Source: Thalassomonas haliotis
Lineage (GTDB): Bacteria; Pseudomonadota; Gammaproteobacteria; Enterobacterales; Alteromonadaceae
NCBI RefSeq assembly: GCF_028657945.1
Contig: NZ_CP059693.1
Location: forward strand, 3,472,001-3,536,000
DNA length: 64,000 bases
Direction: 5' to 3'
Positions 5,018 through 16,625 of this stretch are shown here, in pieces (the stretch's first letter is position 1; the number at the start of each line of letters is the position of its first letter). Under the pieces are notes generated by a model. It was not told the DNA's origin and did no database searches. It saw only the letters and a program-made list of their open reading frames with translations. Both the position numbers and the translations under genes were made by a program.

Positions 5018-5902
5018 ATGCGCTTAAGACATATAGAAATTTTCCATGCCATTTATACCACCGGCTCCATCACCAATGCTGCCAAGATGCTGCATGTTTC
5101 CCAGCCTTCGGTCAGTAAAGTCTTGTCCCATGCCGAATTGCAGCTGGGCTTTAATTTGTTTGAGCGGGTCAAGGGCCGGTTGATCCCCACCGACGAGGCG
5201 GAAATGCTGTTCGATGAAGTCGATAAAATCTACCAGCAGATGCGGGCAATAAAAAACACCGCCGAAAACATCAAAAAATCCGAGTTCGGCGCCATCAGCC
5301 TGGGCGTTACCCCGGCGCTTGGCTTTGATGCCATCCCCAATGTCATTGCCGATTACCACAAGAGCTACCCCAATGTGACGTTTGATATCCAGACCCTGCA
5401 CAACGAGGCCGTACTCCAGGCCCTGCTTGAGCATAAATGCGATCTCGCGGTGCTGTTCTCCCCCAACAGCATGCCGGGGGTCAGCACAAAAACCTTGTCC
5501 CAATCTGAGCTGGTCATGGTTTATCCCAAGGAAAAATTTCCCGAGTGCCCGGACAAGCTGACCTTAAACCAGGTATGCGAGGATGAGTTTATCGATATCA
5601 GCGACAGCGGCCCGCTGGGAGATATGCTGTGGGCGCGTATCATGGAAGAAAATATCAGCTTTAACTCATCCATTAAAGTGCAAACCTACTTTATCGCCGC
5701 ACGCCTGGTCGCCCGCGGATTGGGCATTTGCGTGGTGGATCGTTTCACCGCTCAGGGCAACCTGGCAGACAATGTCGCCATTGCTTCCTTTGATCCGCCA
5801 CTGACCTTTACCGTCAGCGCCGTGCATCTTGAAAACCGCAGTTTATCGAAAGTCACCGAGGAGTTCCTGCCATACTTAAGTAAAGGAATTTCAATAACTT
5901 AA
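5018..5902 (+). CDS. dgcR: LysR-family regulator, probable DgcR-type activator of D-glutamate catabolism
   Basis: The 294-residue protein has an N-terminal winged helix-turn-helix (about residues 2-60: MRLRHIEIF... SITNAAKMLHVSQPSVSKVL) and a C-terminal periplasmic-binding-protein-like effector domain (about 90-290). LysR proteins act as tetramers at interrupted dyads near the genes they control. In Pseudoalteromonas a LysR regulator next to dgcN and dgcA activates them in response to D-glutamate; the identical order here supports the same role. The gene lies 108 bp upstream of dgcN, and an ATAAC-N5-GTTAT dyad sits in that gap. The family call is sure; the specific role is inferred from context. 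Confidence 0.8.
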   Translation: MRLRHIEIFHAIYTTGSITNAAKMLHVSQPSVSKVLSHAELQLGFNLFERVKGRLIPTDEAEMLFDEVDKIYQQMRAIKNTAENIKKSEFGAISLGVTPALGFDAIPNVIADYHKSYPNVTFDIQTLHNEAVLQALLEHKCDLAVLFSPNSMPGVSTKTLSQSELVMVYPKEKFPECPDKLTLNQVCEDEFIDISDSGPLGDMLWARIMEENISFNSSIKVQTYFIAARLVARGLGICVVDRFTAQGNLADNVAIASFDPPLTFTVSAVHLENRSLSKVTEEFLPYLSKGISIT

Positions 5903-5910
5903 GCAAGTTC

Positions 5911-5925
5911 ATAACCCGGGGTTAT
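5911..5925. promoter_or_regulatory. Candidate DgcR operator upstream of dgcN
   Basis: The 17-bp palindrome CATAACCCGGGGTTATG (5910-5926) contains ATAAC-N5-GTTAT, the same half-sites as the dyad at 3306-3320. It lies 8 bp beyond the regulator stop codon and about 100 bp before the dgcN start, a usual place for a LysR activator site. Confidence 0.6.
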
Positions 5926-6026
5926 GATCGAAAAAAGCCTTCTTACTTTTAATGCCTGCCCACAGGAGTAAGCTCACAAATAACACTAACTCTGTTATTT
6001 ACGCTTTTACTTTTAGGAACCTCATT

Positions 6027-7073
6027 ATGCACATAGCTTCTCCTTACCTGTTGTTTATCGGTGACGCCACAGATCAACTTTCCATCAAGATGGCACGCGG
6101 CGTAGCTCACTGGCGCCCCGAATTGTGTATAGCTGAATACAGTGTCGACGGCTGCACCGTCACCACAGGCCTGGAAAAGCTCGATATCAAGCAGGCAGCG
6201 GCCCGGGGCGCTAAATCTTTTGTCTTGGGATTTGCCAACAGCGGCGGCGTACTGGATAAAAAATGGCTGCCCTTTATCTTAGAGGCCCTGGAAAATGGCA
6301 TGGATATCGTCAGCGGCTTGCACGATAAACTTAGCGATTTCCCCGAAGTTGCCGAAAAAGCGAAAGCATGCAAGCGACAATTATTGGATATCCGCCATCC
6401 CAAAGCAGAATTTATTACCGGCACCGGGGTTAAACGCCCGGGAAAACGTTTACTGACAGTCGGCACGGACTGCTCGGTGGGCAAAATGTACACTTCATTA
6501 AGCCTGGAAAAATCCATGAAAAAAGCCGGTATTAACGTAGATTTTCGCGCTACCGGGCAATGCGGCATCTTGATCGCCGGTACAGGTGTTGCTATAGATT
6601 GTGTGATATCCGATTTTTTATCCGGCGCCAGCGAGTCCCTTTCCCCACCTGCAGATGAAGAGCACTGGGATATAATCGAAGGCCAGGGCTCCTTATCCCA
6701 TCCGGCTTTTGCCGGTGTCAGCCTGGGATTATTACACGGCTCCCAGCCCGATGCCCTGGTGATTTGCCATGATCTCAACCGCGATCATATGCGCGGCCTG
6801 CCGGGCAGCCAGCTGCCGAGCATAGCAAAAACCATTCAGCTCAACCTGGAAGCGGCAAAGCTTACCAACCCGGATGTTAAGGTGATCGGCATCACAGTCA
6901 ATACTTCCAGTGTCAGCAGTGATGAAGGCAAAACCATCTGTGCGCGGCTGAGCGAGCAGTTTTCCCTGCCTTGCGTTGATCCGGTGCGTGACAGCGCAGA
7001 CAGCATAGTCGCCGCCCTGACTGCGGATAAAAACACGATCCCAAGTGCGGCAACAGAGGCGATAAAAGCATGA
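6027..7073 (+). CDS. dgcN: DUF1611 family protein, D-glutamate N-acetyltransferase DgcN
   Basis: This 348-residue protein belongs to DUF1611: an N-terminal Rossmann-like part and a C-terminal P-loop part with GTDCSVGKM at residues 146-154. In Pseudoalteromonas the homologue DgcN acetylates D-glutamate to N-acetyl-D-glutamate, the first step of a D-glutamate degradation route. The next gene, dgcA, overlaps by 4 bp (ATGA), so the two are translationally coupled. I start at 6027 because AGGAAC precedes that ATG by 6 bp; an upstream in-frame ATG at 5952 lacks a ribosome-binding site and adds 25 non-conserved residues. The symbol is unrelated to the diguanylate cyclase DgcN of E. coli. Confidence 0.85.
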   Translation: MHIASPYLLFIGDATDQLSIKMARGVAHWRPELCIAEYSVDGCTVTTGLEKLDIKQAAARGAKSFVLGFANSGGVLDKKWLPFILEALENGMDIVSGLHDKLSDFPEVAEKAKACKRQLLDIRHPKAEFITGTGVKRPGKRLLTVGTDCSVGKMYTSLSLEKSMKKAGINVDFRATGQCGILIAGTGVAIDCVISDFLSGASESLSPPADEEHWDIIEGQGSLSHPAFAGVSLGLLHGSQPDALVICHDLNRDHMRGLPGSQLPSIAKTIQLNLEAAKLTNPDVKVIGITVNTSSVSSDEGKTICARLSEQFSLPCVDPVRDSADSIVAALTADKNTIPSAATEAIKA

Positions 7074-8158
7074 AGGTGACGATAAAAGATAACCAAGCCG
7101 GCACGGGATTAAGTATTCAGGTCTTTAATGAGCAATTGCCGTTAAAGTCGGTTTTTCGCATCGCCCGCGGCGCTAAAACCCGGGCCGAAGTCGTCCTGGT
7201 GGCGATATCCGACGGCCAGTATACCGGCTGGGGGGAAGCCGTGCCCTATGGCCGCTACCACGAATCGGTGGCCGGGGTAAGCCAACAAATAAAGACCCTG
7301 CCCCTTGACGGTTTTAACCGTGAAAACCCGGCAGATGCGGACGCTGCCGATAAAAACCTTGCAGAGCTGATTGCCACCCTGCCTGCTGGTGCGGCGCGTA
7401 ATGCCCTGGATTGTGCCTGGTGGGATCTTAAAGCCAAACGCCGGCAAAACACGGTGGCAGCACTGTTATCCCTGCCCCCGGCAACTCCCTGCATCAGCGC
7501 ACAAACCTTAAGTATCGACACGCCTCAGGCGATGGCATCAGCCGTGGCCAAGCTGGATAATCCGCCGCTGGTCAAGGTAAAACTCGATAACGACAATATT
7601 ATCGGTAAGATGACCGCCATCAAGCAGGCGGCGCCAGACAGTCAGTTTATTGTTGATGCCAATGAAGGCTGGTCGCTTGAGGATTTACAAAACTGCTGCG
7701 GGGCGTTAAAGGCCTTAGATGTTGTGTTAATCGAACAGCCTTTGCCTGCCGGAAACGATCAGGCCTTGATTGATTTTAACTGCCCCATTCCTTTGTGTGC
7801 AGATGAGTCCTGCCATACCCGGGCAGAGCTGGAATACCTTAAGAACCGCTACCAGGCGGTCAATATCAAACTGGATAAAACCGGCGGCCTGAGCGAAGCG
7901 GTATTATTGGCCCAAGAGGCCAGAGCCATGGGCTTTGACATTATGCTCGGCTGCATGGTGGCAAGCTCCCTGGCGATGGCACCACTGTCCTTATTATCCC
8001 CCTATGCGCAATATGTCGACCTGGACGGACCTTTATTGATAAGCAGTGACCGTCACTACGGCTTTAAATTTAACCAGGGCTTGATGCAACCGTTAAACAC
8101 TAGGCTGTGGGGTGGTCCCGACGTAAATGATGAGTTATTAAACTTGTTGCAGCAATAA
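7070..8158 (+). CDS. dgcA: Enolase-superfamily epimerase, N-acetyl-D-glutamate racemase DgcA
   Basis: The 362-residue protein has the muconate-lactonizing/dipeptide-epimerase fold. Visible catalytic features are the K-x-K pair at 169/171, metal ligands D196 (VDANEGW), E222 (EQPLP) and D245 (CADES), and the opposing K267 (VNIKLDKTGG). Relatives include L-Ala-D/L-Glu epimerase (YcjG). Coupling to a DUF1611 gene fits DgcA, which converts N-acetyl-D-glutamate to the L form. A deacetylase would then yield L-glutamate; none is encoded next door. Dipeptide epimerase activity remains the alternative, and would link the pair to peptidoglycan peptides. Confidence 0.85.
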   Translation: MKVTIKDNQAGTGLSIQVFNEQLPLKSVFRIARGAKTRAEVVLVAISDGQYTGWGEAVPYGRYHESVAGVSQQIKTLPLDGFNRENPADADAADKNLAELIATLPAGAARNALDCAWWDLKAKRRQNTVAALLSLPPATPCISAQTLSIDTPQAMASAVAKLDNPPLVKVKLDNDNIIGKMTAIKQAAPDSQFIVDANEGWSLEDLQNCCGALKALDVVLIEQPLPAGNDQALIDFNCPIPLCADESCHTRAELEYLKNRYQAVNIKLDKTGGLSEAVLLAQEARAMGFDIMLGCMVASSLAMAPLSLLSPYAQYVDLDGPLLISSDRHYGFKFNQGLMQPLNTRLWGGPDVNDELLNLLQQ

Positions 8159-8376: not shown

Positions 8377-8925
8377 ATGCCAAATAAAAAAAAACTTGAA
8401 AAGGAACAGCAATCAAAGACAACTGCACCGGAAGCTTCAATACCGCCCCCCCCGACACCAGAAGATGAACTCGAACAGCTGAGACAACTTGTCTTTGGTG
8501 CTGCCCAGCAAAGCTTAGTCACGCACATCAGCTCAATACACAATGAACTTAAGCAAGCCCTGAGCACACAAGAGCAAAATTTTTCCAACCGTATCGATAA
8601 GCTGCAGCAAAGCATTGAGCAGCAATTTTCGCAGCTGGAGCGTCGGATACAGTTACTGGATAAAAGCCATGATAATACCGAAGCCGACTTGCAAAAAAGC
8701 CTTGCCGGTCTGGCCGCCACGACAGCACATGACTTTGAAGAGATGGATAAATCCCTCAACAATGAAAGCACCTTGCTGGCCAACAACTTTAACGAAAAAC
8801 TCGAACAGTTAAACAGCCACCTTGAAGAGGTCTCGAAAGAGCTCAGTACCTCGAAAACCGACCGTAAAACCCTGGCGAAACTGCTGGCAACCATGGCAAC
8901 CAACCTAGAAGACGACCAGTTGTAA
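8377..8925 (+). CDS. Coiled-coil protein, first gene of the GTPase/OmpA cluster
   Basis: The protein has 182 residues and no recognised family. A short Lys-rich N-terminus and a Pro-rich spacer (IPPPPTPEDE, about residues 24-33) are followed by a long helical region (about 34-180) rich in Gln, Glu, Leu and Lys with heptad-like spacing, suggesting a dimeric cytoplasmic coiled coil. There is no signal peptide or membrane segment. The stop codon overlaps the next start by one base (TAATG at 8923-8927), so it is coupled to the OmpA-like gene and probably its partner (inference). GTG at 8374 is directly before the chosen ATG; either could start translation. Confidence 0.75.
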   Translation: MPNKKKLEKEQQSKTTAPEASIPPPPTPEDELEQLRQLVFGAAQQSLVTHISSIHNELKQALSTQEQNFSNRIDKLQQSIEQQFSQLERRIQLLDKSHDNTEADLQKSLAGLAATTAHDFEEMDKSLNNESTLLANNFNEKLEQLNSHLEEVSKELSTSKTDRKTLAKLLATMATNLEDDQL

Positions 8926-10697
8926 TGCCCAAAAAACCGTCACCAGAGCAGGTAGAACCGCAGCAGGACATAGCACAAGTCAGGGCGCTGATACTGGGAA
9001 AAGAAAACCGTTTAGTCACTGACACCATCAAAAAGGAAGCCCGCAATACCGTCGCCAGTGTGCTGACGGAGGCATTACACGACAGGCAAAACAAGGACGG
9101 CTCGGTTGACAAGGTTTTACAGCCCCTGGTGGAAGAAGCCGTCAAACATTCCGTCAGCCATAACCGCGAACGCTTGGTCAGCTCTTTATACCCTTTAGTC
9201 GGCAGTTTAGTGAGAAAGTCTGTCACCGCTTTTCTAGCCGACTTTATGGAAAAAACCAATCAGCTGATAGAAAACAGCCTGACGATTAAAGGGATAAAGT
9301 GGCGCATCAAAGCCTGGCAGTCCGGGGTCAGCTTTGCCCAATATGCCGCCTCGCAAACCTTTGTTTACCGTGTTGAACATATACTGCTTATTCACCGGGA
9401 AACCGGCCTATTGCTCAAAGCCGTTGATTTACACGACGGCGGCAAAAGTGATCCCGACCTGGTCTCTTCCATGCTGACGGCAATCAATGATTTTGTCGGC
9501 GATTCGTTTTTGGCCAATGAAGACGGCTTAAAAGAGCAGCTGCAATCGGTCAATACGGACAATTTCAGCCTGTTGATCAAACCAGGTCCCTGCGCTTTGG
9601 TAGTTGCCGCGGTGATCGGCAATGCGCCGCAAAAAGTCAGCGACCAGCTGCAACTGACACTGGAAGAAATTCATCGCTTATATATAGATGAACTCAATAA
9701 CTTCGACGGCGATGACCAGGGCTTTGAAAATTCTGAAAACCTGCTGCGGGACTGTTTATTGTCCGAGCAAAAAACGCTGGAAGCCGGCGTAAAAAAAATA
9801 ACCTGGCCAGCCTGGCTTTTGCTGTTGCTTGCCCTCATATTCGCAGGATTTCAGGCAATAACCTGGTTTGGCAACAAGCAGCTGGCAGAAAAGATCCTCC
9901 AGCTGGATCAGCAACCCGGCATCATGATCAACCAAGTTAACGTTGTCGGCAAAAATGAAGTGGTGCTTGATGTTTTTCGCGATCCCGATGCTGTCGCCAT
10001 AGAGACCTGGTTTCAGGAAAACGGCTTGACGATTGGCGGGCTCAAGCTCAGCCAGCGCCATTACTACTCTCTTGATCCCGCCATTTTATTGATACGCGCC
10101 CAAAAGCTTCTGGCGCCATACCCGGACATAAACATCAACTGGCAAAACAATATCCTGAGCCTGTCGGGTACCCTGGAGCTGATTAAAACAGAAAAACTGT
10201 TCAATGCCTTGTCGACAGCCGGATTTAGCCAGGGGGTAAATTTAAACACCCAGGCATTACACTTGGTTTCAGCAATAACAGCCGCCACCGAAAAAGAAAT
10301 CAAACAGCAAGTATTTAACACCCTGATTGGCCGTATCTCTTCAATTCAACTCGACTTTGCCGTGGCAAGTGAAGCAGTAACCCCGAATATGCAACTCTCG
10401 CTGCAAAGCATTTATCAAGATATCTCCCGGTTAACTTTATTGGCTCAAGCGCTGGAATTAAATTTAGGACTGATCATTACCGGCAGCAGCGATAATACCG
10501 GCAATAAGACAACAAACCAGGCATTAAGTCTTAAAAGAGCCGAAAATATCGCACAAGCTTTAAACCAACTGGGACTGGATAAAAGCAAGATGTTTGTCAC
10601 CGGGTTAGGACAGATTAATATTGCCGGGGTCAGCAATACCGCCAGAAAAGTAATGTTTAACGTGATAGTGACCGACAAGGGCAAAAAGCCAAAGTGA
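8925..10697 (+). CDS. Membrane-anchored OmpA-like protein with large cytosolic N-terminal part
   Basis: The 590-residue protein has no signal peptide. Residues 1-290 look soluble, a single transmembrane helix lies at about 295-315 (WPAWLLLLLALIFAGF), and the C-terminus (about 500-588) is an OmpA/MotB-type peptidoglycan-binding domain (TGSSDNTG, SLKRAENIAQALNQLG, VTGLGQ). Topology would be N-in, C-periplasmic. Residues about 148-260 have predicted strand-turn-strand, helix, strand-strand, helix order (HILLIHRETGLLLKAV ... FSLLIKPGPCALVVAAVIG ... long helix), which resembles the roadblock/longin folds that serve as small-GTPase platforms. This is pattern reading, not a proven hit. A Ras-like GTPase gene follows 124 bp downstream. 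Confidence 0.8.
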   Translation: MPKKPSPEQVEPQQDIAQVRALILGKENRLVTDTIKKEARNTVASVLTEALHDRQNKDGSVDKVLQPLVEEAVKHSVSHNRERLVSSLYPLVGSLVRKSVTAFLADFMEKTNQLIENSLTIKGIKWRIKAWQSGVSFAQYAASQTFVYRVEHILLIHRETGLLLKAVDLHDGGKSDPDLVSSMLTAINDFVGDSFLANEDGLKEQLQSVNTDNFSLLIKPGPCALVVAAVIGNAPQKVSDQLQLTLEEIHRLYIDELNNFDGDDQGFENSENLLRDCLLSEQKTLEAGVKKITWPAWLLLLLALIFAGFQAITWFGNKQLAEKILQLDQQPGIMINQVNVVGKNEVVLDVFRDPDAVAIETWFQENGLTIGGLKLSQRHYYSLDPAILLIRAQKLLAPYPDININWQNNILSLSGTLELIKTEKLFNALSTAGFSQGVNLNTQALHLVSAITAATEKEIKQQVFNTLIGRISSIQLDFAVASEAVTPNMQLSLQSIYQDISRLTLLAQALELNLGLIITGSSDNTGNKTTNQALSLKRAENIAQALNQLGLDKSKMFVTGLGQINIAGVSNTARKVMFNVIVTDKGKKPK

Positions 10698-10821
10698 AAG
10701 AGCCGCGTTAATGGCAACGGGATGACTTGCCAACGGGCAGCGACAACGAAAAATGCACCAGCATGCGCTACACTTGGCATATTACATAAAATAACAGATT
10801 AGCCGGGATGGAGAGGAGACA

Positions 10822-11337
10822 TTGATCCAAAAGAAAATCTGTTTGTTAGGCGCCTCCAGCGTAGGCAAAACCAGTTTAGTTAAACAATTTGTTGAAGGAA
10901 TTTTTAACGAAAAATACCTGACCAGCATTGGTGTGAAAGTCGATAAAAAAATGGTTTCCCTAGCCGACGAACAGGTGCAACTAATGCTGTGGGATATTGA
11001 AGGACATGACCGTTATCATGTTTTCCAGGAACGATATTTGCGGGGCGCCGCAGCCTATATCATAGTGGTCGACCAAACCCGGGCGTCGTCACTGTTAGAA
11101 GGCGTTGACATACACGCCCTCGCCCGCCAAACCATTAACGGCCCCGCCATTCTTGCCATCAATAAAAATGACTTAATCCCGGCCTGGCACCTGGATGACA
11201 GCGAATATAAAAGCTTTGCTCCCCTGTTCGACCTGCAATTTTCCACCAGCGCCAAAACCGGGGAGCAAGTTGAAGCGATGTTTTTAGCCATAACCGAACT
11301 GCTGCACAGGAACAAAAAAGATGACATCACAACTTAA
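10822..11337 (+). CDS. Ras-like small GTPase
   Basis: The 171-residue protein is a compact Ras/Rab-type GTPase with all G motifs: G1 GASSVGKT (10-17), a G2 region LTSIGVKV (33-40), G3 WDIEGHD (57-63), G4 NKND (114-117) and G5 SAK (143-145). The position of the Ras catalytic Gln61 is His62. There is no C-terminal prenylation Cys and no membrane segment. Bacterial relatives (MglA and the diverse Rup group) switch polarity or other cell-surface processes, usually with a roadblock-domain regulator. The start is TTG at 10822, preceded by GAGAGGAG. Its last 17 bp overlap the GGDEF-EAL gene, so the two are coupled. Partner and role are inferred only. Confidence 0.88.
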   Translation: MIQKKICLLGASSVGKTSLVKQFVEGIFNEKYLTSIGVKVDKKMVSLADEQVQLMLWDIEGHDRYHVFQERYLRGAAAYIIVVDQTRASSLLEGVDIHALARQTINGPAILAINKNDLIPAWHLDDSEYKSFAPLFDLQFSTSAKTGEQVEAMFLAITELLHRNKKDDITT

Positions 11338-13459
11338 CCATGTGCTTAATGCGATGGACCAGCTTGTGCTTGAAGTCGTCGACAGTAAAGCTGGCTCAGT
11401 AAAGTTAATTGGCGGCGACAGCGACTGGGTTTGGGCCTTATTTCCCAAACTATGCCCTCAACAAATTTTTGTGCTCACTGATGATACGCCGTTTTTACTC
11501 GACTTTTTACATGACGCCAGGCAAATTTGGCAGGGTCCGGGCGATGCCCGGCTCAGATCCGGCTTTTGGACCGAAATCACCGAAAACAACACCGAATTAC
11601 ACTTAGAAGCCATAGCGATCAAAAAAGAGCAAAAAAACTTACTGGTGATCGCCAACCAATTCGAAGCGTTCAAACTTCAACAACATACCAAACAATTGGC
11701 GCGGGAATTACTGCTCTCCAATGACCGGCTGTTTTTACAAAACGAATACCTGCACACCCGCCTGCTTGCCATTTTTAAACAGCCGCCGGAGCAAAGTACC
11801 CTGCCGGCAACACTGACCAAGATCATCGAGAATGCCGAATTTTCCGTGATCATAACCGACAGTGAGTTAATTCCCCTGGTAGAAAACTCGGCGGCCAGGA
11901 GCTTATTCAAAGAAGACAAGCCCTTTCAAATCCAGCCGGACAAACCCATAGATATCATCTTAAAGCTGATGAAAAATCAACTGCCTGAATATAACAGGAT
12001 ATTATCCACCAAATCTCACTGGGACGGCGAGTTATGCTGGATGTCTCCGCCGGCAACATTAAAATGGTTAAAGATATCTTTCTACCCGGTTAAAACCAAA
12101 CTGAACCAAGTCGAAAACTGGATAGTGTTTGCCAACGACATCAGTACCATTAAATATTTAGTGCAGCGTAACGAGCAACTGGCCTTGCAGGATATGCTCA
12201 CCGAATTGCCCAATCGTTTTTCTTTCTGGCAAACCCTGGAAAAGCATATAAGCTCAACCAAAGACTTCTATTTGTTATATGTCGATATTAACAACTTCAG
12301 ACGACACAACGAATTTTACGGCCATGATGAAGGTGATAAGCTGCTGATAGAATGCGGTAAACGCATTGAAAGCGTGCTCAAGACATCCGATTTTATCGCC
12401 AGGATCGGCGGCGATGAATTTGCCATTATCTTAACCGACATTGATAACCGTAAAGCCTGCGAAATAGCGATACAGCGCATTATCAAGCATATCAAAAAGC
12501 CCTTCACCACCACTAAGGGAGAAACCTTCACCATCAGCATCAGCATCGGCGCGGCAAACTTTCCCGGCGATGCGCAAACGGCTGAAGACTTGATGAAGTT
12601 CATTGATTTAAGCGCCTATAACGGCAAGAAAAATAACAAAAATTCAATACAGTTTTATTCCCAGTCAATGAGGGACACGTCGCACCAGCTGATACAGTTG
12701 GAGCATGAATTAAGACTGGCCATCCAAAATAATGAATTTGAATTATTCCTGCAACCAATCGTTGATTTGGCAAAAAACACCATAACCAAGGCCGAAGCCC
12801 TGATCCGCTGGAACCACCCCACAAAAGGCATGATAGCGCCGGATAACTTTATCCCGGTGGCAGAAAAAAGTGACCTGATTATTGCCGTGGGGGAGTGGGT
12901 CATCCAGAGAACCTGCCAGATGGTAAAAAAACTCGCTAAGCTCGGCTATGACATTAAAATTTCCATGAACCTCTCTTCCGCACAGGTTACCGACAGCAGT
13001 TTATTTTCCTACCTACACAACTGCGTACAAAATTATAAAATCGACCCTTGCCTGCTGGAGCTGGAAGTCACCGAAGGTGTGCTGGTGGATGATTATTCTG
13101 TTGCCAATAAACTACTCAGTAAAGTCAGGACCATAGGCATGAGTGTCGCCGTTGATGATTTTGGTACCGGCTATAGCTCGTTAAGCTATCTTAAACAACT
13201 GCCGTTGGACTTTTTAAAAATCGATCGCTCATTTATCAATGATATTGCCACCGACGACAACGACAAGGCGATAGTACGGGCGGTTATTGCCCTGGCACAT
13301 AACCTTAATTTATGCGTGATCGCCGAAGGCGTCGAAACCAAGGAGCAATTAAATTTTCTAACCGAAAACTCCTGCAATTCCGTGCAGGGCTATCTGTTCA
13401 GCCGCCCGGTGCAATTTAAGGCTTTCATAGCGCTGCTGCAAGAGCAACAAAATACATAA
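11321..13459 (+). CDS. PAS-GGDEF-EAL cyclic-di-GMP signalling protein
   Basis: The 712-residue protein has an N-terminal domain of unknown fold (1-125), a helical linker (about 125-155), a PAS-like domain (about 160-285), a GGDEF domain with intact GGDEF at 363-367, and an EAL domain with EAL at 492-494, DDFGTGYSS from 612 and EGVET near the end. Key catalytic residues of both output domains look intact, so it may make and degrade c-di-GMP; PDE activity is the more common net result in such hybrids. No membrane segment is seen, so it is cytosolic. The start overlaps the GTPase gene, suggesting the GTPase state is read out through this enzyme (inference). Confidence 0.92.
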   Translation: MTSQLNHVLNAMDQLVLEVVDSKAGSVKLIGGDSDWVWALFPKLCPQQIFVLTDDTPFLLDFLHDARQIWQGPGDARLRSGFWTEITENNTELHLEAIAIKKEQKNLLVIANQFEAFKLQQHTKQLARELLLSNDRLFLQNEYLHTRLLAIFKQPPEQSTLPATLTKIIENAEFSVIITDSELIPLVENSAARSLFKEDKPFQIQPDKPIDIILKLMKNQLPEYNRILSTKSHWDGELCWMSPPATLKWLKISFYPVKTKLNQVENWIVFANDISTIKYLVQRNEQLALQDMLTELPNRFSFWQTLEKHISSTKDFYLLYVDINNFRRHNEFYGHDEGDKLLIECGKRIESVLKTSDFIARIGGDEFAIILTDIDNRKACEIAIQRIIKHIKKPFTTTKGETFTISISIGAANFPGDAQTAEDLMKFIDLSAYNGKKNNKNSIQFYSQSMRDTSHQLIQLEHELRLAIQNNEFELFLQPIVDLAKNTITKAEALIRWNHPTKGMIAPDNFIPVAEKSDLIIAVGEWVIQRTCQMVKKLAKLGYDIKISMNLSSAQVTDSSLFSYLHNCVQNYKIDPCLLELEVTEGVLVDDYSVANKLLSKVRTIGMSVAVDDFGTGYSSLSYLKQLPLDFLKIDRSFINDIATDDNDKAIVRAVIALAHNLNLCVIAEGVETKEQLNFLTENSCNSVQGYLFSRPVQFKAFIALLQEQQNT

Positions 13460-13491: not shown

Positions 13492-15603
13492 TCAAAGCGA
13501 GTCAAATGTCAGTAAAACGGCTTGCTCAACAAAGCGGTCTACCCCCAAATAAGAAGCCTGACGGCTGTCAATATTATAAAAATTTGGCCTTGGCGTTTGG
13601 CTATAGGCGCTTTGCCATTCAATCAGGGCAAAATCATCAATATCTACCCGGGCCTTGTCGCCGTTTTCCAACACTAACTCCGCCAGTACCCGGTAACTTC
13701 TATAACCGACACGAGGGGAGTTGAATTCCAGCTCGCCATGCTGCCAGCCAGGCCCACCGGTTAGTTCAACAGTGCCGATCAGCTGCTTTTTGCCATGGCT
13801 TAAGGCATCAAACAGTTTTTGGGAGCGTTTCCTGCCCTGCCAGTAAAAATTCACCCGTACCGCCGAGCTGGTTTTAAACTTAGCCGTCACTGTCATGGCA
13901 CTGCTGGCGTTATACACCCTGCGAAAACTTTGCATGCCAAAAACACTTGGCTTTTTCTTCGTTAACGCCAGCGACAAACTTTTTGAGCCACTGACGCCAA
14001 AGTCATTTACCTGGGTGGTGTCTCGCTCAAACAGCCAGCCCCGCTCCGGGCTGTTAAAAGTGGCAAAACTTTCAAAATCACTGCCGTTGATTAAATTGGT
14101 GCCCAGGCGATAAGCAGCGGCTTTATCCGGCAAGTTAATAGCCGTGAGCTGTTGCTGCCAGGGCAAATGGTACAAGCTTGCTACTCTGGCTCCTTGCTCA
14201 AACATCAGCGCCTGCTGTGGCTTTCTCTTCTTATTTTCTCCCTTGAGCATGGCGTCTTTGGAGATATTGGCGGCAGCTATCACCCCGTGGCCACCAGATT
14301 GGCCAATAAAAGTATCGCGGATTTTCGATAACTGGCGCAGGCGTTTCATCACGGTATAACGCTGCATGCCGGTGGCCGGGGTCGGCTTATAGCCTTTGAC
14401 ATAAATCGGCACTATCTCCGCCCGGTGAAACTTGCCGTTATCGAGCCAGACATATAAAAGAAAACTGTGCTGGGTAGCGCTGAAGTTCTGATCAAAAATA
14501 AAGTTGCCCATGGAATAGGCGATAAGCTTATTGTTATAAAGCTCCAGTCCCTGGCTGACATGGGGATGGTGGGCAATGGCCAGCGCCGCGCCGGCATCAA
14601 GGGATGACTTCAACCTTTGCTCGGTTACCCCGGTCGGGCCGTCGGCATATTCCAGGCTGCCGTGATACTGCACGATTGCTATCCGGTTTTTTTCAACTTC
14701 AGCCGCAACTGAACCGAGCATATTTGCCATAGAACCATAGGCGGCGCCGCCGTGATCATGACTTGCCGTTTGTGTCGGGTTAGCGCTGCCTTCCCAGCCG
14801 ACATAACCCAGCATAGAAAAATCATTACCTTTGATCTGCTGCCTGTGGGCCTTTAATGCCGCCTGTTCATTCGCTCCGGCCCCGGAATAGCCCAGCTCGC
14901 TTTTTTCAAGGAAGGCCAGGGTTGAGCTTAACCCTGACTCTTTATAGTCATAGGTATGGTTATTGCCCAGGGAAACATAATCAATACCGGCCCAGCTTAG
15001 GGCATCAAGCACTTCCGGGTGGGAGTAAAAAGTCACCGATTTAGGCGCCCGCTCCCCCGGAGTTTTGTCGGCAACCTGAGTTTCAAGGTTAACGGCGGCA
15101 TAATCGGCAAGGCTCATATAAGGTTTGATATGTTCGACAATGTCCCGGCTGTCGGACTGTTTAAACGCGGGGCGGATCAGCACTTGGTCACCAAAATAAG
15201 GTTTGTAATATCGCCGTCCCATCATCACATCACCGCCAAAGGCCAGCATCACCCGGCTTTTCATCCGGGGCACCAGGCTGATGCCATTAAGCAGGGATGC
15301 GGCGTTTTGCTCAAGCTCATAATGACTAAAGCTTTGGATGACAGGAAAATAATCGGGGTGCGAAAACTTAAGCTGATAGGTTTCGGCTGCAACAGCTTTT
15401 AATATAAAAGTACCGTCGGCGTCAGTGACGCCAGCAGCATCAGAGGTGGAGACTTTGGCTCCGGCTACCGGTGTGCCTTGTTCGTCCACTAAACTGCCCG
15501 CCAGGGTAAAATTCGACTCCCCTTTGCCCTTGGCAAAACTGTTAACACTTAAACCCGGCTGCAAAACCAGTAAACAAGCGATTAGAAAATACCGCATTAT
15601 CAT
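13492..15603 (-). CDS. CapA-family (PGA_cap) metallophosphatase-like secreted protein
   Basis: The 703-residue protein has a Sec signal peptide (1-24), an Ig-like carboxypeptidase-regulatory repeat (about 32-105), a CapA/PGA_cap domain (about 115-395, with FGGDVMMGRRYY, LGNNHTYDY, VQYHGSLEY and IAHHPHVSQGLE) and a C-terminal beta-sandwich-like region (about 510-690). CapA-type proteins take part in poly-gamma-glutamate or capsule production in Bacillus; in gammaproteobacteria most are uncharacterised. No capB or capC homologue is adjacent, so the substrate is unknown. The metal-binding residues of the calcineurin-like fold (GGD, GNNH, HxH) are present. Confidence 0.85.
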   Translation of the reverse strand: MIMRYFLIACLLVLQPGLSVNSFAKGKGESNFTLAGSLVDEQGTPVAGAKVSTSDAAGVTDADGTFILKAVAAETYQLKFSHPDYFPVIQSFSHYELEQNAASLLNGISLVPRMKSRVMLAFGGDVMMGRRYYKPYFGDQVLIRPAFKQSDSRDIVEHIKPYMSLADYAAVNLETQVADKTPGERAPKSVTFYSHPEVLDALSWAGIDYVSLGNNHTYDYKESGLSSTLAFLEKSELGYSGAGANEQAALKAHRQQIKGNDFSMLGYVGWEGSANPTQTASHDHGGAAYGSMANMLGSVAAEVEKNRIAIVQYHGSLEYADGPTGVTEQRLKSSLDAGAALAIAHHPHVSQGLELYNNKLIAYSMGNFIFDQNFSATQHSFLLYVWLDNGKFHRAEIVPIYVKGYKPTPATGMQRYTVMKRLRQLSKIRDTFIGQSGGHGVIAAANISKDAMLKGENKKRKPQQALMFEQGARVASLYHLPWQQQLTAINLPDKAAAYRLGTNLINGSDFESFATFNSPERGWLFERDTTQVNDFGVSGSKSLSLALTKKKPSVFGMQSFRRVYNASSAMTVTAKFKTSSAVRVNFYWQGRKRSQKLFDALSHGKKQLIGTVELTGGPGWQHGELEFNSPRVGYRSYRVLAELVLENGDKARVDIDDFALIEWQSAYSQTPRPNFYNIDSRQASYLGVDRFVEQAVLLTFDSL

Positions 15604-16294: not shown

Positions 16295-16430
16295 AAATGG
16301 CCGACCAGTGATATTTTTTGGCGAACCTGTTTTACCGCCTGTTGGAAAACCTCAGTAGACTGATCGGGTCTGCATGGCTTCAAACACCGCTATGCAGATC
16401 TGTCACTACGAGTTACTAAAAGGATTGAAA

Positions 16431-16625
16431 ATGAAATCTTCAACAATAAGAAAAACATTATTAGCACTTAGTTTGGGGCTGGGCTTAAGCGGCCTGGCAT
16501 CCAGTGTTGCGGTTGCCGGCCCGGGGGAAAGAGAGTGCCAATACCTGGAGCAAAGATGCCTTAACGGCGATGCCGGAGCCTGTGATACCCATGATCGTTT
16601 ATGCTGGCGCTGGGATCCGCGCTAA
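16431..16625 (+). CDS. Small secreted four-cysteine peptide, copy 1
   Basis: The 64-residue product has a signal peptide ending VAVAG (about residue 29) and a mature part of about 35 residues with cysteines spaced C-x6-C-x7-C-x6-C (CQYLEQRC, CLNGDAGAC, CDTHDRLC). I recognise no family. The start at 16431 is chosen because AAAAGGA lies 6-12 bp upstream and a signal peptide begins there. The second copy (16692-16880) shares the leader and cysteine spacing. The spacing would put each Cys pair about two helical turns apart, as in a disulfide-stapled helical hairpin. Confidence 0.7.
   Translation: MKSSTIRKTLLALSLGLGLSGLASSVAVAGPGERECQYLEQRCLNGDAGACDTHDRLCWRWDPR

Follow-up and report, generated by a model that had tools for sequence, protein, structure and literature searches.

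A putative Group 1 Rup operon in Thalassomonas haliotis: a Rab-like GTPase, a predicted longin-like domain in its envelope partner and a possible route to cyclic di-GMP breakdown

Introduction

Group 1 Rup proteins are prokaryotic GTPases of the Ras superfamily that are reportedly very similar to eukaryotic Rab, Ran, Ras and Rho, and their gene neighborhood was described in 2014, without experiments, by Wuichet and Sogaard-Andersen (PMC4316618). According to that paper, no Rup member had been characterized as of 2014 and the GTPase-activating protein (GAP) was unknown; a glutamine acting in trans on the GTPase was put forward there without a test. The neighborhood comprises a coiled-coil gene, a gene for an unknown domain joined through a transmembrane segment to an OmpA domain, a GTPase without the G3 glutamine and an output gene with an invariant N-terminal glutamine. 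Here, we describe such a unit in a 64,000-nucleotide window of Thalassomonas haliotis DNA (contig NZ_CP059693.1 of assembly GCF_028657945.1, positions 3,472,001 to 3,536,000, forward strand). With a probability of about 0.5, we read it as a signaling operon in which an envelope-anchored Rab-like switch controls the breakdown of cyclic di-GMP (c-di-GMP) through a longin platform and a reader domain marked by Gln125. The reading draws on observed gene content, order, co-occurrence and residue conservation, and on longin and PAS-like folds predicted by computation.

Three other kinds of system invite comparison. The MglA/MglB polarity module likewise pairs a small Ras-superfamily GTPase with a partner of the longin/roadblock type, which in the present unit is a predicted one; as a family rule, MglA has its G3 aspartate replaced (PMC4316618 and PMC3000849), whereas the GTPase described here is Rab-like with the G3 Asp, and its partner is membrane bound, carries an OmpA domain and appears longin-like rather than Robl_LC7. 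The actinobacterial conservons (CvnA-D) are operons that also join a small GTPase to a membrane or sensor protein, with an MglB-type roadblock protein, CvnB, and a histidine-kinase-like CvnA (PMC13343842); the present unit has instead an OmpA anchor and, in most cases, an enzyme of c-di-GMP turnover. Finally, in eukaryotes, Mon1-Ccz1 (Ypt7/Rab7), Fuzzy-Inturned (Rab23) and TRAPP (Rab1) each match a Rab-like GTPase with a longin-fold partner, whereas here the system is bacterial, the partner is a single protein fused to a transmembrane segment and an OmpA domain, and exchange activity is only proposed. Among the open-licence papers listed in our searches, judged by title and abstract opening, we found neither experiments on a Group 1 Rup system nor mention of a longin domain in one, and "bacterial longin" and like phrases gave no match in open-licence papers.

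Results

A conserved four-gene unit

Four open reading frames lie on the + strand between positions 8377 and 13459 of the window, as the preliminary description had it. Gene 1 (P0001; 8377..8925) encodes a putative coiled-coil protein of 182 amino acids (aa), and gene 2 (P0002; 8925..10697) a 590-aa protein with an OmpA domain. Gene 3 (P0003; 10822..11337) encodes a 171-aa Rab-like small GTPase of the Rup Group 1 type, and gene 4 (P0004; 11321..13459) a 712-aa protein made up of a PAS-like domain, a linker, a GGDEF domain and an EAL domain. The spacings first reported are also exact, with a 1-base-pair (bp) overlap of genes 1 and 2, a 124-bp gap between genes 2 and 3 and a 17-bp overlap of genes 3 and 4.

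Of 59 genomes searched with gene 3, T. haliotis included, 14 gave a match and 13 have a true orthologue; one relative (G031/L014), an 883-aa frame with 26% identity and no partner genes, was dropped. The 12 orthologues outside the window share 50 to 89% identity with its GTPase, and genes 1, 2 and 4 accompany the GTPase in the same order and on the same strand in 13/13 genomes. Among these 13 loci, the unit sits in at least six different flanking-gene settings. Flanks are common to same-genus loci and different again in each of L018, L019, L020 and L023; by eye, a ferrochelatase-like neighbor is common to L021, L022 and L024, and histidine-type genes to L025 and L026.

A scan of named genomes, from which the best 80 of 377 relatives were kept, extends this picture. 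All four families occur in the same order and on the same strand in 72 of the 80 loci, although one or more genes are shortened or split in L039, L061, L066 and L076 and gene 2 of L107 is just 340 aa. Four loci hold genes 1 to 3 without a recognized gene 4 (L052 and L097, at a contig end; L077 and L105, not), three hold the GTPase and an output gene only (L098, L099 and L103), and one, on a 4.9-kb contig, holds gene 2 and the GTPase (L106). Records beyond Gammaproteobacteria are named Rhodothermaceae (L097), Pyrinomonadaceae (L105), Acidobacteriota (L106) and Dehalococcoidia (L107), along with a Verrucomicrobiota record of GTPase and output only (L103). Genes 2 and 3 are spaced by a median of 18 bp (76 loci), genes 3 and 4 by a median of 3 bp (75 loci). 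In a Paraglaciecola metagenome-assembled genome, gene 2 is spread over two overlapping frames (L021, 4415-6182, apparently the same as L061, 6210-7977), either an error or a pseudogene.

Counted by itself, the GTPase has a match at E <= 1e-15 in 34 of the 369 class genomes searched. Across 398 genomes of the phylum, the gene 2 domain was detected in 50 and the GTPase in 49, with both in 47 and only 5 discordant, these being raw counts that ignore kinship. At 47 of the 52 GTPase places in these genomes, the gene 2 domain is encoded on the same strand no more than 4 kb upstream. Three of the other places have little contig upstream, less than 1 kb in G575 and G667 and 617 bases in G665; the remaining two are second GTPase copies, taken up below.

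Because order and strand recur in 12/12 other orthologue genomes and in 72/80 named loci, the arrangement is far above chance. The 124-bp gap between the two gene pairs is what would speak for four mere neighbors with independent roles, a reading left barely credible, and in effect refuted, by the keeping of the unit in at least six flanking-gene settings among 13 loci and by the short spacings in most of the 76 and 75 loci measured. A chance neighborhood was likewise rejected on the order kept in 13 loci and the co-occurrence of GTPase and gene 2 in the phylum. The proposal that a Ras-type switch, a protein of peptidoglycan-binding type and c-di-GMP turnover make up a single functional unit is strongly supported at the level of sequence conservation.

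The preliminary description did not recognize such a unit, but the neighborhood was already described and predicted in the 2014 paper. By the features tested, the window genes are a Group 1 Rup system. The GTPase is of the Ras superfamily, is not MglA, lacks the G3 glutamine and has no coupling to MglB (Robl_LC7); a coiled-coil gene and a domain-transmembrane-OmpA gene adjoin it; and the output protein has an invariant N-terminal Gln (Q125, probably the 2014 Gln). Gene content is identical, whereas here the unknown domain is predicted to be a longin domain and the output reader to be PAS-like, and the outputs are extended by HD-GYP and class III cyclase proteins.

The GTPase

Gene 3 matches the Ras family (PF00071, E 1.3e-26), starts with TTG and has GGAGAGGAG just upstream. 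Among solved structures, the GTPase profile matches Rab5A and Rab23 best (E about 1e-31). In its G3 motif, DIEGHD (10993..11010, +), the aspartate is kept and the catalytic glutamine is absent. This aspartate, D58, is invariant in 13/13 orthologues, while only one of the 79 loci read has a glutamine at the G3 place, the pattern having missed one more locus. The T. haliotis genome has five more PF00071 matches, all in longer frames (305 to 896 aa).

Comparison with MglA, suggested in the preliminary description, does not survive these data. D58 is kept, Rab5 and Rab23 are the best solved matches, and Robl_LC7 finds nothing in the T. haliotis genome at E up to 0.001. The GTPase is therefore of a different kind from MglA, and membership in the MglA/MglB family was rejected. 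A polarity switch of MglA/MglB type shares with this unit a prokaryotic Ras-superfamily GTPase, and MglB appears among the Foldseek rows for gene 2; against it stand the genome without Robl_LC7 and the Rab matches, and we consider such a switch very improbable here. The roadblock partner expected at the outset is accordingly missing as a Robl_LC7 protein, although it may exist as the predicted longin domain of the OmpA protein.

A predicted longin domain in the envelope protein

Gene 2 is predicted to encode a single-pass inner-membrane protein, with a cytoplasmic helical region and a longin-like domain followed by a transmembrane segment and a periplasmic OmpA domain, a topology that we infer. 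A hydrophobic run marks the transmembrane segment at about residues 293-315 (9801..9869, +); in 66 gene 2 homologues, the best 20-residue stretch within residues 240-420 has a mean hydropathy of 1.1 to 3.0. The peptidoglycan-binding-type OmpA domain covers residues 503-567 (10431..10625, +; PF00691, E 1.6e-9). Within it, R538 is invariant and D523 nearly invariant among 12 sequences, and we take these two to be the peptidoglycan-binding residues.

Residues 146-283 (9360..9773, +) form the predicted longin domain. In the structure model, this region has the element order bbabbba with a C-terminal helix, which served as the mark of the longin fold. Of the 50 VIA rows, one comes from the longin part of a roadblock-longin protein of Lokiarchaeota; none is a roadblock chain of MglB or Robl_LC7 type, a fold that the domain could nonetheless have. 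Alignments of 64 gene 2 domain members, the window included, and of 57 gene 4 N-terminal members were also compared with Pfam at E up to 0.1. The window members gave no match, and the remainder gave 48 families (gene 2) and 11 families (gene 4) mostly unrelated to one another. A rescan of 36 of the 63 non-window members and four other gene 2 homologues located Fuz_longin_1 in two and Sybindin in none; no rescan match tabulated, of whatever family, reached its cut-off. By hhalign, the gene 2 domain profile and the gene 4 N-terminal profile match with a probability of 0.6%. The hidden longin-type domain predicted by the model in this wall-anchored protein is the new point over the 2014 description.

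The longin-like domain could also be only a dimerizing or membrane-side scaffold, with the GTPase regulated by gene 1 or by an unlinked protein. Some roadblock/longin proteins have no GTPase role, according to PMC10933270, the orphan Rup genes of L098, L099 and L103 have no gene 2 nearby, and gene 1 is kept nearly as regularly as gene 2 (76 versus 77 of 80 loci). The gene 2 domain and the GTPase nevertheless occur together in 47/398 genomes with 5 discordant, a pattern of direct partners, and they are also paired outside Proteobacteria (L097, L105, L106 and L107). On balance, we judge the scaffold role unlikely, if far from negligible.

A motif common to genes 1 and 2

Gene 1, which has a homologue in 76/80 loci, gives only sub-threshold Pfam matches, many of them to coiled-coil families; it looks like a coiled coil, as judged from the sequence rather than from a coiled-coil predictor score. 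Its conserved C-terminal SKTDRKTLAKLLATMATNLE segment (8851..8910, +) was delineated in an alignment of 13, where K160, T161, D162, R163, K164, L166, A167, L169, A174, N176 and L177 are invariant in 13/13.

Near their N-termini, the products of genes 1 and 2 have a motif in common, [LIVM][RK]x[LIVM][LIVMF][LIVMF]G, which reads LRQLVFG in gene 1 (residues 35-41; 8479..8499, +) and VRALILG in gene 2 (residues 19-25; 8979..8999, +). It is present in 74 of 76 gene 1 homologues (shuffle mean, 0.07) and in 61 of 77 gene 2 homologues (shuffle mean, 0.3). Twelve of the 16 gene 2 homologues without it were inspected by eye, and 11 deviate at one position. Alignment of the two families by hhalign gives a probability of 32%, just over the stretch with the common motif. 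These patterns suggest that the two proteins may dock to one another or have a docking surface in common.

The output protein

Gene 4 has GGDEF (PF00990, E 6e-38; 12182..12643, +) and EAL (PF00563, E 2.8e-76; 12707..13408, +) domains. For the PAS label given to it earlier, Pfam shows no match at E up to 1; by predicted fold, the first 150 residues are PAS-like. In the model, residues 1-113 make up the PAS-like part and residues 114-149 a long signaling helix (together, residues 1-149; 11321..11767, +). Q125 (codon at 11693..11695, +), the residue proposed to act in trans in GTP hydrolysis, is invariant both in 57/57 alignment rows, with outputs of three enzyme kinds, and in 67/67 GGDEF-EAL proteins. 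The latter set comprises the window protein and those of 66 loci, after exclusion of nine loci whose frames were short or whose outputs were of another kind.

In these 67 proteins, the eight catalytic residues of EAL enzymes are identical in 67/67. The GG[DE]EF motif is intact in 22, the window included, and degenerate in 45. From this difference, the conserved activity of the GGDEF-EAL form appears to be c-di-GMP breakdown. The idea that the c-di-GMP enzyme reports for the unit is therefore plausible, with the qualification that the conserved activity is that of the EAL phosphodiesterase and not of GGDEF. HD-GYP, the output of several distant loci, as a rule also breaks down c-di-GMP. In other proteobacterial families (L151 and L155-L158), a class III adenylate/guanylate cyclase, whose N-terminal domain differs, takes the place of the module output. 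Four kinds of output enzyme are thus joined to one type of GTPase front end.

The Gln125 domain may be a pure effector and Q125 a structural residue, in which case an unlinked GAP, or the GTPase's own slow hydrolysis, would switch the GTPase off. Gln125 is found near the beginning of the predicted long helix, where a structural role is possible, and glutamine in trans is a proposal of PMC4316618; Q125 is, however, kept in 57/57 rows across three enzyme kinds while the GTPase is without its own Gln. We rate the pure effector a strong contender, a little short of an even chance.

Flanking genes

Directly upstream of the module, 5018-8158 on the + strand holds genes for a LysR regulator, a DUF1611 protein and an enolase-superfamily member, the last of which ends 218 bp before gene 1 and is presumably dipeptide-epimerase-like. 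Among the 13 loci compared, this trio stands beside the module in same-genus loci only. A convergent gene at 13492-15603 encodes a PGA_cap domain (capsule synthesis type) and a carboxypeptidase-regulatory-like N-terminus and is also found in same-genus relatives. By eye, a short frame at 16374-16625, just downstream of an AraC-like frame, has a signal-peptide-like start and a cysteine-rich end. A consensus scan found no excess of promoter-like sites (8 versus 7.7 in shuffles) or terminator-like sites (9 versus 8.6).

Discussion

We infer the following scheme for how the proteins interact, for nucleotide exchange and GAP activity, for how gene 2 spans the membrane and for which way the signal runs. 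The outer end of the gene 2 protein would hold peptidoglycan, and its inner longin end would be the platform on which the gene 3 GTPase docks and exchanges its nucleotide. Gene 1, a putative coiled coil with the same N-terminal LRxLLxG motif, would help to assemble this platform. A cell-wall change would alter the longin platform and, through it, the GTP state of the switch. GTP-bound gene 3 would then bind the PAS-like N-terminal domain of gene 4, where Gln125 would supply the glutamine absent from the GTPase, so that, as proposed, reading the switch would also turn it off. The signaling helix would pass the event to the EAL phosphodiesterase.

Several observations weigh against this scheme. 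Confidence in the longin model is middling, with a mean pLDDT of 65.8 and values of 47 to 60 over residues 171-210, a stretch that includes the first helix. Foldseek returned just 4 matches at E 0.001, with target TM-scores of about 0.4 to 0.6 in the first rows. The gene 2 domain profile had 0 matches to PDB sequences at E up to 10, and hhalign against seven Robl_LC7 sequences gave a probability of 8%. Longin-type Pfam matches, Sybindin in 3/64 and Fuz_longin_1 in 2/64 gene 2 members, are two of the 48 sub-threshold families. The gene 4 N-terminal profile is found in just 7/398 phylum genomes, making the reader domain less general than the GTPase and gene 2. Arrangement also varies: in L097 the GTPase is on one strand and genes 1 and 2 are on the other; Alteromonas profundi (L077, 8001-9470, apparently the same as G768) has genes 1-3 and no recognizable output frame between the GTPase and the next gene; and L105 too has genes 1-3 without a recognized gene 4. 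The second GTPase copies of G436 and G442 stand beside an output gene with a gene-4-type N-terminal domain, an HD-GYP protein in G436, and without genes 1 and 2. Orphan Rup GTPases with no genes 1 or 2 in their flanks occur in L098 (8001-9508), L099 (7977-9566) and L103 (7875-9610). Since such Rup genes with an output exist, the longin partner is not always needed nearby.

The orphan GTPases of L098, L099 and L103 adjoin an HD-GYP or histidine kinase gene, and Paraglaciecola arctica A3R16 carries a full module (L064) in addition to an orphan GTPase-output pair (L099).

The system is of a known kind; what is new here is the structural lead to a longin domain, the motif common to genes 1 and 2, and c-di-GMP breakdown as the probable conserved output. 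We advance tentatively, and with more doubt than belief, that bacteria carry a true Rab-longin pair, in which a Rup GTPase is controlled by a longin domain in a wall-anchored membrane protein, homologous to the Mon1-Ccz1, TRAPP and Fuzzy-Inturned platforms. The predicted longin domain, lying in the most constant Rup partner, is a direct candidate regulator and, if the proposal is true, would supply the regulator that the Rup family has been missing. The Rab-longin pairing would then predate the membrane-traffic system of eukaryotes or be common to it and bacteria; its bacterial role would be to pass on the condition of the cell wall to outputs based on c-di-GMP, cyclic nucleotides or a phosphorelay. 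The Rup longin lead would connect bacterial envelope signaling with the origin of Rab-longin control.
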